DNA of 64,000 nt, taken from an uncultured Christensenellaceae bacterium (GTDB taxonomy: Bacteria > Bacillota > Clostridia > Christensenellales > UBA3700). The notes under the pieces were generated by a model. It did not search any database. It saw nothing but the letters and a program-made list of their open reading frames with translations, and was not told the origin of the DNA. The stretch covers positions 1-64,000 of the forward strand of contig CALWHE010000005.1 of NCBI GenBank assembly GCA_944380295.1, written 5' to 3'. Position 1 is the first letter of the stretch. Every line of letters begins with the position of its first letter. Positions 34,190-41,290 of this stretch are shown here, piece by piece. Made by a program: the position numbers and the translations under genes.

Positions 34190-35467
34190 ATGAGTGCATT
34201 CGACAAAGTAATCGGCTATGAAAAAGAGAAGGAAGAACTGTATCAGCTGTGCGACATGGCGAAAAATTCGGCAAAATATGCGGCTCTGGGCGTAAAACTT
34301 CCGCGCGGTATTTTGCTGTACGGTGTGCCGGGTGTAGGTAAAACCTTGATGGCAACGGCTCTCCTCGATGAGATGGATAATGGCAGAAAACGCTACGTTC
34401 TCCGCAAGGACAAAGCCATCGAAGAGTTTGTGGAAAGCATTTCCAAAACCTTTCAGGAAGCTAAAGAGAATGCGCCTTCCGTCATCTTTCTCGATGATCT
34501 CGATAAGTTCGCATCTGACAGCAATTCGCGCAATCCGGAAGAACTTATTGCCGAACAGTCCGGTATCGATGAAGTGAAAGGCGCTGATGTTTTCGTCGTT
34601 GCCACCGCTAATGACGTGCGTGTACTGCCTAATTCATTGCGACGTCCCGGCAGATTCGATCGTATTCTCGAGATTCGTCTGCCCAACCGCAGAGAAGCGG
34701 TGGAGATCGTGCGCCATTATCTGAAAGGGAAAAAGGTTGCAGACGATGTTACTGCCGAGGGCGTAGCGCGGCTGATGGACGGTAATTCGTGCGCCGCACT
34801 GGAGAGCGTTCTCAATGAGGCCGGAATCTATGCGGGGTACGAAAACAAAACGGAAATCAAACGCGAGCATATCGTAAGGGCGGTGCTTCGGGACATCTTT
34901 GAGGCGGACGAATCCGTCAACGAAATATCTGTTGCGGCAAAAGAAGAGGTTGCCTTTCACGAGGCGGGACACGCCGTGGCGGCGCTTGCGTTTGATCCCG
35001 AAGGCGTTGGTCTTATTTCCATTCGGCCGAGTAAGAGCGATGCGCGCGGCGTTGTGCAGATTTTTAAGAGCGAAGATTACTTCGGTTCTTACAATAAAAT
35101 GCATGAGCGCGTCATTTCTTTGCTTGCGGGCCGTGCCGCCGTGGAACTCAAATTCGGTCATACGGATGTCGGGGCTGCCTCCGACCTTAACCGAGCTTCC
35201 GCCATTTTGCAGCGTTTCATCGTCGACTACGCGGCGAGCGGGTTTGCGCTGTTCCATCATGATAATCACGACGGTATCAGTTCGTGTAATCAGGAAGACG
35301 GTATCACGGCGGAACGTAGCGCCATGCTTGCCCGTTGCTATGAAGAGGCGAAAGACGTTCTTCGCAGGAATTGGGCGTTTGTCGAAAAACTCGCGGCGAC
35401 GCTCGTCGAACGGGATACGCTTGTATTCGAAGAGATCGCCGAGCTTCGCAGGGAAATGGCGTCATAA
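34190..35467 (+). CDS. Soluble FtsH-like AAA+ zinc protease
   Basis: 425 residues. AAA+ domain with Walker A G45VPGVGKT52, Walker B VIFLDD (Asp102-Asp103) and an arginine-finger segment NSLRRPGRFDR; C-terminal M41 peptidase with H257EAGH261 and third zinc ligand Asp332 in a GAASDL motif. FtsH proteins unfold and degrade tagged or damaged proteins. Unlike classical FtsH (about 600-650 residues) there is no N-terminal membrane helix pair, so it should be cytosolic. GAGAGG precedes the ATG. Closed by a terminator; single gene. Confidence 0.9.
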   Translation: MSAFDKVIGYEKEKEELYQLCDMAKNSAKYAALGVKLPRGILLYGVPGVGKTLMATALLDEMDNGRKRYVLRKDKAIEEFVESISKTFQEAKENAPSVIFLDDLDKFASDSNSRNPEELIAEQSGIDEVKGADVFVVATANDVRVLPNSLRRPGRFDRILEIRLPNRREAVEIVRHYLKGKKVADDVTAEGVARLMDGNSCAALESVLNEAGIYAGYENKTEIKREHIVRAVLRDIFEADESVNEISVAAKEEVAFHEAGHAVAALAFDPEGVGLISIRPSKSDARGVVQIFKSEDYFGSYNKMHERVISLLAGRAAVELKFGHTDVGAASDLNRASAILQRFIVDYAASGFALFHHDNHDGISSCNQEDGITAERSAMLARCYEEAKDVLRRNWAFVEKLAATLVERDTLVFEEIAELRREMAS

Positions 35468-35544: not shown

Positions 35545-35550
35545 TATAAT
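35545..35550 (+). promoter_or_regulatory. -10 box, leaderless spacing, of the chimeric gene
   Basis: TATAAT followed by six bases and ATG at 35557. The -35 region is weak (TTGTTT with a 19-bp spacer). Same arrangement as other leaderless starts in the window. Confidence 0.5.
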
Positions 35551-35556
35551 TGAATC

Positions 35557-36677
35557 ATGGATTATTGTATTTCAGATATCACGGCTATTATGGTCTGTTT
35601 TGCCGTCTGCTCGATAAAATCAGATTCAGCGACAAAGACAAGCTGTATGTGCTGGGCGATATCATCGATAAAGGACCGGACAGTATCCGTCTCGCAAAAC
35701 TTTTGTTTTCCATGCCGAACGTTTATTGCATTGCGGGCAATCATGAATATGATTTTTTAAAGTATTATCGTGCGTTGATGAAGCAGACGGAAGATTATGA
35801 TTGGGTATTGGAGAAGATCGCGGTTATGCCGCGTGAGTTCGCTTTCGGCACAAAGAGGGCGGGGACGCTGCTGAAACATTACGCGATGATAGGAGTTGCG
35901 CGCGTGGAGGACGGTTGTCCTCTCTACGCAGAAGCCTGCAACGAGAAAGGGCTTTGCATGGCAGGACTCAATTTTCCCGCAAACGCCGTGTATAAAGACA
36001 GAGGAGAGAAAGGACAGACAGAGCTTGCGCCTTACGAACTGATACCTTACGTATTGGGGAAATGCGCGAGCGTGGACGAAGCCGAAAAACTGCTCTCGGA
36101 CGTCGAAGTCGTAGGAGAGAGGTTTCGACCGCATTTGCCGCTTGCGCCGCTTCATTGGATAATATCGGACGACAAGAGGAATATTGTGTTCGAATGTACG
36201 TCCGAAGGCGCGCGCATTTTCGACGATCCATTCGGGGTGCTTACCAACAATCCGCCTTTTCCTTATCACGCAGAGAACGTCAAAAATTATGAGCATTTGT
36301 CGCCCGATAACAAAAATTTTACTCTCCGTGTGGGTAAAGCCGATTTTTCCGAGGGAGAAGGCGGGGTTGGGCTGCCGGGCGATCTCACTTCAAAGTCGCG
36401 GTTTGTCAAGGCGTGGTTTTGTCTTAAGAACTCGGTTTGCGGCGATTCGACGGAAAGCAAAGTCGCGCACGTACTGGCTATGCTCGGCACAGTCGCGATG
36501 ACGGGCGGCGCTGTCGTCACGGCGGAGGGCAGGGCGGACGTCACGCGATACTCGTGTTGTATCGACGCGGCAAACGCGACATATTATTACAGGACGTACG
36601 ACAAACTTAAGGTCGGCAAGATCGCGCTCGGACAAGCCGACGTCGACGGCGGAGAGCTTGGCGTTTACGTTTTCTGA
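35557..36677 (+). pseudogene. Frameshifted chimera: metallophosphoesterase N-terminus joined to choloylglycine hydrolase-like domain
   Basis: From the ATG the frame reads MDYCISDI, then a missing C at about 35580 breaks it; in the next frame it continues HGYYGLFCRLLDKI, GDIIDKGPDS and GNHEYDF, the calcineurin-like phosphoesterase motifs (DxH, GDxxD, GNHE). After about 85 residues the sequence becomes choloylglycine hydrolase-like: HYAMIGVARV, EKGLCMAGLNFPANAVY, PLAPLHWIISD, LTNNPPFPYH and GLPGDLTSKSRFV to the normal C-terminus. The first ~25-30 residues of that enzyme, with catalytic Cys2 and Arg, are missing, and so is most of the phosphoesterase. It is therefore probably inactive in both parts. 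It may result from a deletion joining two genes, or from misassembly. Confidence 0.75.
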
Positions 36678-36877: not shown

Positions 36878-39139
36878 ATGAAAAAGTTCAGATATCTGAT
36901 ATTTGCGTGTCTGATCGTCGTGCTTGCTCTCGCTTTGGTAGCTTGCAATAATGACGGAGGAACGACTGAACTGCCGGACAACGGCGGCGACACGGGCGGC
37001 GACACCGACGGCGAAACGGGCGGCGACACCGACGGCGAAACGGGCGGCGACACCGACGGCGAAACGGGTGGCGACACCGACGGAGAAACGGGCGGTGAGA
37101 CCGACGGCGATACTGACGGCGAAACGGGCGGCGAAACCGGCGGCGAAACCGGCGGCGACACCGACGGAGAAGAAAAGCCTGTTTACGATGAAGGTGATAT
37201 CGAATATTATCTCTCCAATCTGGAGCAGTACGACATTTATCCTGTACAGTTCAGAAAAACCGATCTGTCCGATTTCGCAGAATCTGTGACATGGGGTTTT
37301 ACCGTGGGAGAAAACTCGTTTACTCAGGAAAACGGAGAACAGCTCACTTGCTTCTGTGTCGAGGACGAGGCGGAAATTGAACAATTCGGAGGAATATATG
37401 AAGTGACGCGAGTCGAGGGCAACGTGTTTGTTTCAGGAACGCCCTGGATCGTAGACATAGTTTGCACGGGAGAGAGCGACCGTCAGCCGGGCGATTTTCT
37501 CGGTACGGAAGGGAAAGCCCAATACGACGCTTTGAACGAGGACGGCTTTGTGCTGGATCTGGATTCATACACTGCGGCAGACGGCATGGATAATTATGTG
37601 ATATACGCATCTTCCCATATTTACGGCGAAGGTCGCGTTTATCTGATGGATGAAGGCGAAAATCCCGATGACATCATACAGTCTTTGATTGACAAAACGT
37701 CACACTATTTTTATGTGGTCAGGTCGGGAAACGTGTTGCATTACAGTTCTGTCATGAACGCGGTCGATTATCTGAAGCACGTATGCGGCGAAGATGCGGA
37801 TATCGAGTATTACGAGAGTCCGACCTACACGGCGAAAAATACGCTCGTCGCTCTCGCCGATTATGAGGATGCCGTTAGGGCAAACTTCGATTACGTAGCG
37901 GTAAGTGCAGGTTCGACGTATTACGAGGAGGCTCTCAACGTATACTACACGGAAAGGATAATGGCGAGAAAAACGGGCAGCACAGAGTATTTGACGATAG
38001 TAAAATTGACCAACGGGTCTACCGTTGACTGGATAATAAACGAACTGGATCTCGAGATTGCGGATATGGGCAACGACGTTGTCATAGTCGGCACGCCTTG
38101 GGCGGTTTCTGTCGCACGGGGAGAGAAAGACGATTCACTCTTGGGGCAATACGCCGTTACACTCGGCGTAGACGGTATTCTGTCCGCGCTCGAAAACGAT
38201 ATCAGCGGCGTTTACATTTATTTCGGTTTATTGTTGGCTACGGCATATATCGAGACCGACAGCTCGTTCAATATAGTGATAAATTCCGACGAAAACGCCG
38301 AAGTCAACATCCTGGACCGATATTATGTAAAGAGGAATGGTATAATGATATTCGACAACACGCCCGAAACGCTTGAGAAGATACTGAAGACGGGCGAAAG
38401 CATCGTAGACGTTTACGACGTGTATGCGGCAGGCTGGGACGCCCTCGCTTCCGACTCGAAGATGTCGGGCTACGTAAGCGCACTTGAAAACGCGGGTATA
38501 GATTACGTGGTGAACGAAGCCGACATATCGTCGGACACGACAGCTCTCGGGGTAAATTATTCCGAATACGGCTTCAAAGGCGTATTTAAAGACCAAGAGT
38601 ATCTGAAAATAGAATACTACAGCGATCCAAGCGTTGCCGCGACAGAGGCTTCGCAATACGACGGTTGGCTGACGTGCCGCGCTGACGGCAATTATCTGAT
38701 CACAGGAACTCCGTGGATCGTCGATACAGTCACGGGCATAGTTCCCACTGCGGAAAAAGACAAGTTTTTAGACAACGTCGATGAGGATGTATTCAACGAG
38801 TTCATAGCCTTGACCGGGTCTGACGCACTGTGCGTTTTCAACAGACTTGACGCCGACGATTTCGGAGCCGAGAACGCATACTCGTTCTACATAGGGGGCA
38901 ACGACGAGATCTCGTTTAGATACGGCACAGGATCATCACAAGTTGCCGTGTTCGAGTTTGCAGACTCCGAGAGCGCGACGAACTTTATCGACAGTACCGA
39001 AGTAGTATCCGTTGTCTCTGATTTTGCCAACAGGATATATCTGTACGGCAACATGGTCATCATCGGCACGATATCATACGAAATTATGACCCAAGTGTAC
39101 GGATTGTATCCGGGTATGACGTGTTATCAGGAGCTGTAA
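36878..39139 (+). CDS. Large repeat-domain lipoprotein
   Basis: 753 residues. Lipoprotein signal with Val-Ala-Cys at 21-23. Residues about 32-102 are a low-complexity linker of GGDTDGET units. The rest appears to consist of about six units of roughly 100 residues, several ending in a shared (I/V)xGTPW(I/A)V motif (GTPWIVDIV, GTPWAVSVA, GTPWIVDTV). No catalytic motif is recognised. The architecture suits an outward-facing protein held away from the membrane by a flexible stalk. It is monocistronic between two terminators. AGGAGGAG precedes the ATG. Function unknown. Confidence 0.85.
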   Translation: MKKFRYLIFACLIVVLALALVACNNDGGTTELPDNGGDTGGDTDGETGGDTDGETGGDTDGETGGDTDGETGGETDGDTDGETGGETGGETGGDTDGEEKPVYDEGDIEYYLSNLEQYDIYPVQFRKTDLSDFAESVTWGFTVGENSFTQENGEQLTCFCVEDEAEIEQFGGIYEVTRVEGNVFVSGTPWIVDIVCTGESDRQPGDFLGTEGKAQYDALNEDGFVLDLDSYTAADGMDNYVIYASSHIYGEGRVYLMDEGENPDDIIQSLIDKTSHYFYVVRSGNVLHYSSVMNAVDYLKHVCGEDADIEYYESPTYTAKNTLVALADYEDAVRANFDYVAVSAGSTYYEEALNVYYTERIMARKTGSTEYLTIVKLTNGSTVDWIINELDLEIADMGNDVVIVGTPWAVSVARGEKDDSLLGQYAVTLGVDGILSALENDISGVYIYFGLLLATAYIETDSSFNIVINSDENAEVNILDRYYVKRNGIMIFDNTPETLEKILKTGESIVDVYDVYAAGWDALASDSKMSGYVSALENAGIDYVVNEADISSDTTALGVNYSEYGFKGVFKDQEYLKIEYYSDPSVAATEASQYDGWLTCRADGNYLITGTPWIVDTVTGIVPTAEKDKFLDNVDEDVFNEFIALTGSDALCVFNRLDADDFGAENAYSFYIGGNDEISFRYGTGSSQVAVFEFADSESATNFIDSTEVVSVVSDFANRIYLYGNMVIIGTISYEIMTQVYGLYPGMTCYQEL
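36979..37170 (+). repeat. 24-bp coding minisatellite (GGDTDGET units)
   Basis: In-frame tandem copies of a 24-bp unit encoding Gly-Gly-Asp-Thr-Asp-Gly-Glu-Thr, with small variants. Unit number could change by slippage without shifting the frame. Confidence 0.9.
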
Positions 39140-39200: not shown

Positions 39201-39229
39201 TTGACAAAACTTTTGCTTGATGCTAAACT
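39201..39229 (+). promoter_or_regulatory. Promoter of the preQ1-regulated operon
   Basis: TTGACA (39201-39206), 17-bp spacer, TAAACT (39224-39229), placing the start near 39236, just before the riboswitch. Confidence 0.75.
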
Positions 39230-39246
39230 TTGTCTGTAAATAACAA

Positions 39247-39316
39247 AGACAGTTCGTGACCATCCTGTCTATAAACAAAACTAGGGAAAAGGATGGGCGC
39301 ATTATGCGCCTTTTTT
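39247..39316 (+). promoter_or_regulatory. preQ1-I riboswitch with terminator expression platform
   Basis: AGACAG (39247-39252) pairs with CTGTCT (39265-39270) around a TTCGTGACCATC loop, followed by the A-rich tail ATAAACAAAACTAGGG, the same layout as the class I preQ1 aptamer upstream of Bacillus que genes. The loop CCATCC (39260-39265) can pair with GGATGG (39291-39296), which overlaps the 5' arm of a terminator (GGCGCA/TGCGCC then six T, 39296-39316). So ligand binding should free the terminator and switch the operon off. preQ1 is a precursor of the tRNA base queuosine. Confidence 0.85.
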
Positions 39317-39344
39317 GTTCGGTCGCGTTCTGAAAAGAGGATAT

Positions 39345-40103
39345 ATGCTTAAAAGAATAAAAAACTCGTTTGCGGAATTCAGACTTCTTCTCAACAGCGT
39401 GCCGACGGCAGTGACAGTCTTTTTCGTTATCAGCGTTTTCGCAATGAATCTTCTCGCCAACAAGAGCATAAATCTGCCCGTAGACTGGCTCGCGCTCGAT
39501 TGCGGAATTATAGTTTCGTGGTTCGCTTTTCTCACTATGGATATCGTGACCAAGCATTTCGGACCAAAGGCGGCTACTCAGCTCTCTGTATTCGCGATAG
39601 CGGTCAACCTCGTGTTCTGCCTGATAATGTTCCTCGGCAGTATCATTCCCGGCGCGTGGGGCGAGTCGTTCGTCGAGCAGGGAGGCGAGAGCATAAACGT
39701 CGCGCTCGACAACACTTTCGGCGGTACCTGGTACGTGCTTGCGGGAAGCACTCTCGCGTTTGTCGTCTCGGCGTTCGTCAACAACTTCGTCAATGCGGGC
39801 ATCGGTCTCGCTTTCAGAAAAAATCCCGACGGCGCGGCGGCGTATTTCCTGCGTTCTTACGTATCGACCGCGATAGGGCAGTTTGCAGACAATATGATAT
39901 TCGCGCTCGTCGTCAGTCACGTGTTCTTCGGCTGGTCGCTTCTGCAGTGCGTCACTTGTTCGCTTACGGGCATGGTCGCGGAGCTGCTCTGCGAAGTGCT
40001 TTTCTCGGGCTTCGGTTACGGCATCTGCAAGAAATGGAAGAAAGAAGAAGTAGGTAAAAAATATTTCGAGTTTTCTGCAAAACTCAGGGAGGAAACGAGA
40101 TGA
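39345..40103 (+). CDS. VUT/YhhQ family queuosine precursor transporter
   Basis: 252 residues with about six membrane helices; MDIVTKHFGPKAATQ and the later AIGQFADNMIF segments match the COG1738 family, shown in Escherichia coli (YhhQ) to import preQ0 and preQ1. AGAGGA precedes the ATG. The preQ1 riboswitch directly upstream agrees with this job: the cell takes up queuosine precursors when they are scarce. The stop overlaps the next start (ATGA). Confidence 0.93.
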   Translation: MLKRIKNSFAEFRLLLNSVPTAVTVFFVISVFAMNLLANKSINLPVDWLALDCGIIVSWFAFLTMDIVTKHFGPKAATQLSVFAIAVNLVFCLIMFLGSIIPGAWGESFVEQGGESINVALDNTFGGTWYVLAGSTLAFVVSAFVNNFVNAGIGLAFRKNPDGAAAYFLRSYVSTAIGQFADNMIFALVVSHVFFGWSLLQCVTCSLTGMVAELLCEVLFSGFGYGICKKWKKEEVGKKYFEFSAKLREETR

Positions 40104-40747
40104 AAGTTCTGATCACGGGTACGAGCGGCGGCATCGGCAAGGCTATCGCGGAAAAATTTATTTCACTCGGTCATGAGGTGATCGGGATCGACAAAGAGGC
40201 GTCTCAGCTGATAAATGACCGATATAAGCATTTCGTAGCCGATATAGCAAAGGGTGATCTGCCTAACGTCGACGGCGTCGAGATACTCGTCAACAACGCG
40301 GGCGTGCAGGACAGCGGCGAGGACATTGACGTCAATCTCAAAGGCACTATCCGCGTGACAGAAAAATACGCGTTTAACGACAGGATAAAAAGCGTGCTTT
40401 TCATAGCTTCGGCAAGCGCCCACACGGGTGCGGAATTTCCCGAGTACGCGGCAAGCAAGGGAGGTATCGTTGCGTATATGAAGAACATCGCGCTGAGAGT
40501 CGCAGAATACGGAGCGACTTCCAACAGTCTTTCGCCTGGCGGCGTCACCACGCATATAAACGACAGAGTGATGAACGACGAGGCGGCGTGGAACAAAATA
40601 ATGTCGCTGACGTTGCTTCCAAAATGGGCAAGCGCGGAGGAGATCGCGGACTGGGCATACTTCGTGACTGCGGTCAACAAGTCCATGACCGCGCAGGACG
40701 TGCTGATAGACAACGGCGAGGCGGCGAAAGCGGAATTTGTCTGGTAA
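40100..40747 (+). CDS. Short-chain dehydrogenase/reductase
   Basis: 215 residues, slightly short for classical SDRs (about 250). Nucleotide-binding GTSGGIG at 7-13, NNAG at about 66, a Ser in SASAHTG and the catalytic Y116-AAS-K120. The variable substrate-binding region is short. It acts on an unknown alcohol or carbonyl using NAD(P)H. It overlaps the transporter gene by four bases and so is under the same preQ1 riboswitch, which hints at a step in queuosine salvage; that is inference. Confidence 0.9.
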   Translation: MKVLITGTSGGIGKAIAEKFISLGHEVIGIDKEASQLINDRYKHFVADIAKGDLPNVDGVEILVNNAGVQDSGEDIDVNLKGTIRVTEKYAFNDRIKSVLFIASASAHTGAEFPEYAASKGGIVAYMKNIALRVAEYGATSNSLSPGGVTTHINDRVMNDEAAWNKIMSLTLLPKWASAEEIADWAYFVTAVNKSMTAQDVLIDNGEAAKAEFVW

Positions 40748-40786: not shown

Positions 40787-41290
40787 TAAACCACCGACTA
40801 AGTCGGTGCGTATCAAAAGGCTTTAGCTATGGACAAAAGAAAACCTCCTTTGTTACAATTTATGCAGGTTTGCCAACCGCATAAATTAAAGGAACAAAGG
40901 AGGTTTTCCGACAATGGATAGTTTATCACATACGAAGTGGAATTGCAAATATCATTTGGTATTTGCGCCGAAGTACAGACGGCAGGCAATATATGGAAAA
41001 GTAAAAGAAGATATAGGAAGGATGCTGAGAAAGCTGTGTGAATATAAAGAGGTAGAAATACTTGAAGCAGAAGCGTGTCCTGATCATATACATATGTTGG
41101 TAACGATACCGCCGAAATACAGTGTGGCACAGATAGTAGGATACCTGAAAGGGAAAAGTAGTCTTATGATATTTGAAAAATATGCCAACATGAAATACAA
41201 GTATGGAAACCGACACTTCTGGTGCAGAGGATATTACGTTGATACTGTAACACATTTTTATGGACACTATAACATTAGAAACTTTTAATT
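40787..41290 (+). mobile_element. IS200-like insertion sequence, apparently intact
   Basis: Left-end hairpin of 7 bp with a three-base loop at 40792-40808, then a long leader hairpin (40840-40907) whose 3' arm contains the GGAGG of the transposase, then tnpA. The same order occurs in the damaged element at 24.7 kb. In IS200 such a leader structure keeps transposase expression low. No tnpB. The right end is not obvious; the limit given is the end of the gene. Confidence 0.75.
40914..41288 (+). CDS. tnpA: IS200/IS605-family Y1 transposase
   Basis: 124 residues, complete. The HUH motif is H58-I-H60 in PDHIHMLV and the catalytic tyrosine is in CRGYYVDTV (Tyr107 or 108). The enzyme cuts single-stranded DNA at hairpin ends and moves the element by peel-and-paste. 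The ribosome binding site is locked in a 15-bp hairpin arm. The protein is clearly related to, but diverged from, the broken copy at 24.8 kb, so the two came in separately. Confidence 0.95.
   Translation: MDSLSHTKWNCKYHLVFAPKYRRQAIYGKVKEDIGRMLRKLCEYKEVEILEAEACPDHIHMLVTIPPKYSVAQIVGYLKGKSSLMIFEKYANMKYKYGNRHFWCRGYYVDTVTHFYGHYNIRNF

Follow-up and report, generated by a model that had tools for sequence, protein, structure and literature searches.

Described systems for the salvage of queuosine precursors

In C. difficile, a preQ1-I riboswitch controls queK, qrtT and queL, which code for a queuosine (Q) hydrolase, an ECF S component and an enzyme converting queuine to preQ1, respectively (PMC11477304, in part). 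The yhhQ genes, too, are found under preQ1 switches (PMC11625349, in part), and the QPTR protein of E. coli takes up preQ0 and preQ1 but not queuine at the levels tested, whereas that of Chlamydia takes up queuine (PMC11570991, in part).

The locus described here lies in a window of 64,000 nucleotides, i.e. the whole stretch of DNA that was analysed, and comprises a transporter gene and a gene for a short-chain dehydrogenase (SDR) behind a predicted preQ1-I riboswitch. It resembles the C. difficile operon in that such a switch precedes an importer for a Q precursor together with an enzyme, which in the case of queL makes preQ1 from queuine (PMC11477304, in part), but differs from it in its importer, a PF02592 protein instead of an ECF S component, in its enzyme, an SDR instead of the radical enzyme QueL, and in the lack of a nucleoside hydrolase in the two-gene unit. 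With the QPTR/YhhQ family (COG1738, PF02592, TIGR00697) it shares a PF02592 match above the cut-off and the same regulatory setting (PMC11625349, in part); unlike that family, the branch found in the window scores below the TIGR00697 cut-off and is nearly always partnered by an SDR. QueT (PF06177), the ECF importer of preQ1, has the same supply role and a distribution within the order that nearly excludes that of the pair, but is an unrelated transporter without this SDR.

A search of the literature returned no link of an SDR to Q salvage or to preQ1 switches, a mention in McCown 2014 or Yuan 2019 being possible. No SDR appears in the accessible parts of a transporter survey and a preQ1 riboswitch review (PMC11130926, PMC11625349); likewise, the term 'dehydrogenase' does not occur in the accessible text of PMC11130926, PMC6593275 and PMC11625349, nor 'SDR' in that of two of these. 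What would be new here is the kind of enzyme in a preQ1-controlled salvage operon, operons of this sort as such being already known.

The operon and its leader

The operon consists of the following elements, in order along the forward strand.

39201..39229, + strand: sigma-70-like promoter, TTGACA (39201-39206), 17 nt, TAAACT (39224-39229), recognised in the sequence; a similar site lies upstream of the aptamer in relatives
39244..39290, + strand: predicted preQ1-I riboswitch aptamer, P1 GACAG/CUGUC, A-rich tail ACAAAACUAGGGA (RF00522 match)
39260..39296, + strand: alternative helix CCAUCC (39260-39265)/GGAUGG (39291-39296) of the MFE fold, with a putative role in switching
39296..39316, + strand: intrinsic terminator-like hairpin GGCGCA/UGCGCC followed by six T (sequence, fold)
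39345..40103, + strand: predicted queuosine-precursor transporter of a divergent branch of PF02592 (Vut_1; YhhQ/QPTR-type; 82.7 bits, E 4.6e-23)
40100..40747, + strand: intact SDR of 215 aa, partner of the transporter (adh_short, E 4.5e-19; alignments A1 and A6; AlphaFold model)

The aptamer aligns over its full length to positions 1-45 of the RF00522 model and scores 28.8 bits (E 3.1e-4 in a permissive local search of 221 bases), i.e. below the gathering score of 39 bits that defines membership of the family. At gathering scores Rfam returned no riboswitch, so that a gathering scan alone overlooks the aptamer, and its detection needed the permissive Rfam search as well as two models of our own, R1 and R2. 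Across the 1.75-Mb genome, the site is the top one of the six RF00522 matches listed (E 5.6e-4, the next one having E 1.01). The short P1 hairpin, C-rich loop and A-rich 3' tail characteristic of preQ1-I aptamers are all present and conserved in A4 and A5. Since the element is found again directly ahead of the transporter gene in related loci, the sub-threshold score does not reflect a chance match; an origin of the arrangement by chance or artefact is ruled out by the recurrence of both the pair and the leader, as detailed below.

In the MFE fold the alternative helix shares nucleotides with the aptamer and with the base of the terminator. Judging from this fold and from known preQ1-I switches, the leader would let transcription through at low preQ1, leading to the synthesis of the importer and of the translationally coupled SDR, while binding of preQ1 would let the aptamer hold the CCAUCC strand, so that the terminator forms and the operon is turned off.

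Transporter and short-chain dehydrogenase

The transporter named VUT in the earlier note belongs, by its sequence, to a divergent branch of PF02592: it exceeds the gathering cut-off of that family (82.7 versus 27.2 bits) and falls short of the equivalog cut-off of TIGR00697, 'queuosine precursor transporter' (37.4 versus 50.95 bits). Its gene overlaps that of the SDR by ATGA.

By its motifs and its Rossmann fold the SDR is a classical one, with TGxxxGIG, NNAG and the residues N79-S104-Y116-K120 intact, as seen from alignments A1 and A6, the structural model and the fold search. Invariant among the 49 sequences of A6 are the key glycines, N79, S104, S106, Y116, K120 and Asp31, and the family has residues of its own (E112-F113, N154, W176, D204-N-G-E207 and F213). 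In the AlphaFold model (pLDDT 94.7, pTM 0.92) strand 2 ends at residue 31, and Asp31 lines up with an Asp of 5gwt, whose structure was determined with NADH. An Asp at the end of strand 2 favours NAD(H), and NAD(H) more often means oxidation; Asp31 therefore suggests NAD(H) as the cofactor and, on general grounds, oxidation as the more usual direction.

Fold comparisons with Foldseek and VIA-align returned the generic SDR fold alone, without a clue to the substrate (VIA-align Z up to 29.5, rmsd 1.6, 210 residues aligned, with ties throughout). Likeness to SDRs of the FabG-like PRK06550 type (VIA-align Z about 28-29) and to EntA/DhbA, a 2,3-dihydro-2,3-dihydroxybenzoate dehydrogenase having been found in Foldseek, extends to fold, motifs and the NAD-type Asp. 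EntA oxidises a ring diol adjoining a double bond. Unlike these classical SDRs, the protein is far below all NCBIfam cut-offs listed, is only 215 aa long owing to a shortening between strands 3 and 5, and carries its own E112-F113, DNGE and FVW end. Among the 25 of 187 NCBIfam matches listed no SDR family came near its cut-off, the best one, the FabG/PRK06550 equivalog, scoring 79.9 bits against a cut-off of 270.

The entire SDR sequence is devoid of cysteine, which is evidence against both QueF-type and radical-SAM chemistry. Accordingly, it lacks the radical-SAM CxxxCxxC motif that defines QueL, although the same reaction would be possible without membership of that family, and there is no Pfam match to QueF (PF14489).

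Recurrence of the gene pair

Among 99 genomes, i.e. the window's own and 98 relatives, the transporter was found in 23 (E<=1e-10), and in all 23 loci an SDR homologue adjoins it (tblastn with the window SDR), with 48-90% identity to the window SDR, the latter excluded. Conversely, starting from the SDR (E<=1e-30) gave 24 matches in the 99 genomes, namely the 23 genomes with the transporter and G022, where the SDR is cut off by the start of the contig (base 3) and neither the transporter nor QueT is in view. Phylum-wide the SDR family is rare: of 398 genomes drawn evenly, two have it, the window's own and G240.

A wider scan with alignment A1 gave 536 confirmed stretches, the best 80 of which were taken as named loci; as they were picked by similarity, they favour the close, pair-bearing branch. 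Their records are labelled uncultured Clostridia, Lachnospiraceae, Acholeplasmatales, Anaeroplasma, Spirochaetales and Evtepia, amongst others, and include Clostridia, Bacilli and Spirochaetales labels. In 77 of these best 80 loci a PF02592 transporter adjoins the SDR. Seventy-four have a transporter of the A2 type, all of one branch, directly upstream, and the other three have a canonical QPTR exceeding the TIGR00697 cut-off (59-159 bits), which lies just downstream of the SDR in L088 and L098 and just upstream in L106 (Evtepia gabavorous). The two genes of the 74 pairs are separated by at most 2 nt in 64 cases and overlap in 55, and no gene recurs regularly behind the SDR. At least four of the 80 loci (L030, L031, L049, L054) overlap loci of relatives already counted and were excluded from the test of distances, in which transporter and SDR distances are correlated over 89 paired loci (r 0.63; maximum of 1000 permutations, 0.31), some correlation being also expected from shared descent alone.

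No transporter was found near the SDR in three of the best 80 loci (L062, L074 and L075). As a separate observation, the QueA reading frame in the genomes of L074 and L075 (G510 and G511) is split by stops or frameshifts and looks broken.

Leaders of related loci

In the window's own genome and its relatives the aptamer is located just upstream of the transporter in 20 of the 23 loci, 19 of them recognised by a strict pattern and one (L021) by model R2 (E 2.7e-4); it was not found in L022 and L025 and is weak in L019. The RF00522 scores listed for the relatives' loci range from 24 to 29 bits. Strict aptamer patterns match 73 of 103 loci.

Two models were built because a joint alignment of both aptamer types (A3) mis-registered P1. 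In the terminator type, to which the window belongs, the leader reads GACAGUUCG...CUGUC...AAAACUA; in the ribosome-site type it reads AAGAUGUUCCUUG...CAUCUU...ACAAGGAG, with a pseudoknot that includes the AGG of the ribosome site. For the latter type (A5, 11 sequences) 97.5% of helix cells are paired, compared to 21-64% for slid partners, and the pseudoknot P2 (CCUUG/CAAGG), counted in these 11 sequences, has 100% of its cells paired.

R1 and R2 were run over 84 loci, consisting of the best 80 together with L019, L021, L022 and L025. Within the best 80 named loci they place preQ1-I aptamers before 60 (E<0.004), with match coordinates just ahead of the transporter: R1 accounts for 37 matches at E<1e-14 and R2 for 23 at E<0.004, the R2 counts being model matches as scored. 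Of these 60 loci, 16 had supplied rows to the models and 44 had not. Five further, weaker R2 matches have E 0.006-0.052, and 15-20 of the best 80 loci are without an aptamer by R1/R2, which is explained in part by short contigs.

The arrangement given in the earlier note, a preQ1 riboswitch preceding the transporter and an SDR overlapping it by ATGA, is thus confirmed in sequence, Rfam and Pfam, and the search it had proposed for such pairs behind preQ1 riboswitches did find them to recur (23 of 23 loci; 77 of the best 80, with aptamers before 60).

Of note, seven ribosome-site-type aptamers contain an extra, often hairpin-like stretch between P1 and the A-rich tail and span 66-82 nt as compared to about 42:

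L057, 7151-7232: long ribosome-site-type aptamer
L058, 4979-5056: long ribosome-site-type aptamer
L080, 4376-4441: long ribosome-site-type aptamer
L081, 7163-7241: long ribosome-site-type aptamer
L083, 7159-7238: long ribosome-site-type aptamer
L094, 7159-7236: long ribosome-site-type aptamer
L103, 7160-7233: long ribosome-site-type aptamer

A third aptamer-like type, AGCGAAG UUCGGCCUCUAAAUC CUUCGCU ... AAAACCAAGGAG with the ribosome site in its tail, also stands before the same pair:

L027, 2258-2307: third aptamer-like type
L028, 2257-2306: third aptamer-like type
L029, 2219-2268: third aptamer-like type
L097 and L108, upstream of the transporter: third aptamer-like type, recognised by eye

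The queuosine pathway in the host genomes

Among the 99 genomes TGT was found in 92, QueA in 94, QueH in 75 and QueC in four, and strong QueF matches (E about 1e-33) are confined to the same four, none of which has the pair; de novo synthesis of preQ1 beside the pair can thereby be rejected. Another 13 genomes, among them the pair-bearing G015, G017, G019 and G078, give weak partial QueF matches (E 1e-9 to 1e-6) that probably reflect a related fold. The window's own genome has TGT, QueA and QueH, and neither QueC nor QueF was found in it. In line with this, QueA is present in 49 and QueC in none of the 50 SDR-bearing genomes tested from the best 80 named loci. The presence of QueA and absence of QueC imply that these bacteria insert preQ1 and must obtain it. 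A role of the SDR as a substitute for QueH was also considered and is unlikely, because three pair-bearing genomes (G009, G060, G081) lack QueH and so do some that have no pair.

In genomes of this order the pair takes the place of QueT, the importer of preQ1. QueT occurs in 48 of the 99 genomes, namely in 2 of 23 with the pair versus 46 of 76 others (Fisher p 8.7e-6, a value that ignores kinship and is a guide only), and within the genus g3 in none of eight pair-bearing genomes versus four of five others. The window's own genome and G055 keep QueT as well as the pair. Inspection by eye of ten QueT regions, using a rough ORF list, recognised no linked queK or queL.

A related locus without the transporter

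In G240 the SDR is 60% identical to that of the window and has no such transporter within 1.5 kb. Instead, its end is one base short of that of a convergent ECF S gene (L133, G240:C15:103000-117500, 14.5 kb), which in turn overlaps a gene for a PF01156 nucleoside hydrolase, the SDR being on the other strand. The ECF S component is CD3073-like, and both it and the hydrolase are below the named NCBIfam cut-offs. Ahead of the hydrolase lies a leader reading GACAG...CUGUC-GCUAAACAAAACCAGGA, followed by a terminator-like hairpin, which is matched by R1 (E 1e-4 over 104 kb) and folds better than 200 of 200 shuffles; Rfam's RF00522 model does not list it. The SDR is thus found beside a hydrolase and an ECF S component, the gene kinds of queK and qrtT in the C. 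difficile queK-qrtT-queL operon, albeit in a single case.

A TIGR04100 radical SAM protein and a TIGR04002 membrane protein are encoded 2.4 kb away. The radical SAM protein had no match in a PDB sequence search, and the nucleoside hydrolase, ECF S and radical SAM proteins of G240 gave no tblastn match in the other loci.

Proposed function and alternatives

Because of the recurrent pairing, the preQ1 switch, the occurrence in taxa that need salvage and the independent context in G240, the SDR is very likely to be a dedicated enzyme of Q-precursor salvage, and probably a hitherto undescribed one that serves to recycle preQ1 in gut bacteria unable to make it. That the SDR acts in queuosine salvage, possibly on a freed cyclopentene or sugar part, had been suggested in the earlier note: the same four lines of evidence uphold the link to precursor salvage, whereas such a freed part as the sole substrate fits less well than queuine itself, since nothing in the two-gene unit would free it.

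An importer and an enzyme under feedback by preQ1, in cells that need preQ1, suggest that the imported compound is turned into preQ1 with the help of the enzyme. As the hosts feed preQ1 and not queuine into tRNA (TGT, QueA) and cannot make preQ1, the most likely cargo would be queuine; import solely of preQ1 would need no enzyme, which also supports queuine as the cargo and preQ1 as the product of the SDR. Queuine is an abundant free form, and for this reason, together with the precedent of QueL and a cyclopentenediol that an SDR could oxidise, it is the best candidate. The pair could therefore quite conceivably be a preQ1-repressed salvage operon that imports queuine and converts it to preQ1 by means of the SDR, the conversion itself being put forward with slightly more reserve. 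Oxidation of one cyclopentenediol hydroxyl with NAD+ would render the C-N bond labile, and the amine might leave either via an amino-ketone to imine conversion and hydrolysis or via beta-elimination, yielding preQ1 and a cyclopentenone. More tentatively still, the SDR might thus be a non-radical queuine lyase, which oxidises the cyclopentenediol with NAD+ and frees preQ1 as an Fe-S-free counterpart of QueL. However, preQ1 itself is another possible cargo, and the E. coli QPTR did not take up queuine at the levels tested (PMC11570991, in part). The three loci without a transporter near the SDR (L062, L074, L075), two of them in genomes with a QueA that looks broken, and the presence of QueT in the window's own genome and in G055 also speak against this reading.

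The same pathway logic would hold if the cargo were a related compound that has to pass through a redox step at an alcohol, a carbonyl or the ring on its way to preQ1, e.g. 7-hydroxymethyl or 7-formyl deazaguanine, oxidised queuine or the base of glycosylated Q. SDRs act on alcohols and carbonyls, and those of the dihydropteridine type act on similar heterocycles; to our knowledge, however, none of these is established in free form as an abundant nutrient, as queuine and Q are, and this possibility is considered unlikely.

Direct import of preQ1, with an SDR whose substrate lies outside queuosine metabolism and whose pairing reflects a shared need, would alone satisfy the pathway, and the 46 of 76 pair-less genomes that have QueT do without this SDR family, which among the 99 genomes occurs outside the pair-bearing ones only in G022. 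Such a loose relationship is nevertheless rather unlikely in view of the near-absolute pairing in both directions, the coupling by overlap, three further associations with another QPTR branch and one with a hydrolase-ECF operon.

The SDR fold resembles that of polyol and diol dehydrogenases, galactitol and butanediol dehydrogenases ranking high although tied with many others, and the enzyme might act after an unlinked lyase to clear or recycle the five-carbon piece freed from queuine. In that case a separate lyase would be expected in or near the operon, but nothing is conserved behind the SDR, which moreover is coupled to the importer itself; this role is considered quite unlikely.

A substitution for QueF, with the transporter supplying preQ0 and the SDR reducing it at the nitrile to give preQ1, would yield the product that the switch demands and would be in line with the transport of both preQ0 and preQ1 by the E. 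coli QPTR (PMC11570991, in part) and with the lack of a clear QueF in pair-bearing relatives. Against it stand the absence of any cysteine from the window SDR, Asp31, which suggests NAD(H) and not NADPH, and the finding of QueC in 0 of 50 SDR-bearing genomes, which implies that these have no home-made preQ0. QueF chemistry uses a catalytic cysteine, and we know of no SDR that reduces a nitrile, so that this substitution appears improbable.

A neutral SDR, retained beside the transporter through common ancestry, which within one order does hold neighbours together, is very improbable given that the pair persists between SDRs of only 53-90% identity, across many families and under the record labels Clostridia, Bacilli and Spirochaetales, and that the catalytic residues do not vary among 49 sequences.

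Significance for queuosine salvage

The importer-SDR pair, predicted to be under preQ1 control, is present in roughly a hundred genomes. If the proposed role is correct, the SDR would be the first of queuosine metabolism, distributed together with its own importer and a preQ1 switch among gut Clostridia, Bacilli and Spirochaetales, and the pair would bring SDRs as an enzyme class into a pathway not known to contain any. It could then explain the use of queuine by preQ1 auxotrophs without the radical lyase and serve as a gene marker for Q salvage. Gut bacteria compete for queuine, a micronutrient, and through them so does the host.

Neighbouring genes in the window

Upstream of the operon, positions 34190-35467 (+) encode a 425-aa FtsH-like protein with AAA and M41 peptidase parts, which begins at position 160 of the FtsH profile, i.e. 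without the membrane part. The single frame at 35550-36677 (+) joins an N-terminal Metallophos part (residues 11-91) to the body of a choloylglycine hydrolase (88-370); the hydrolase body starts at profile position 27 and hence lacks its own N-terminus, and the frame is a product of fusion, recombination or assembly. The product of 36878-39139 (+), 753 aa long and lipoprotein-like, contains GGDTDGETGG-type repeats in a row and has no Pfam or NCBIfam match. Directly behind the SDR an IS200-type transposase is encoded (40914-41288, +), preceded at 40789-40900 by a sub-threshold match to STnc490 (39.6 of 56 bits), which is probably the IS200-type element's own end hairpin.
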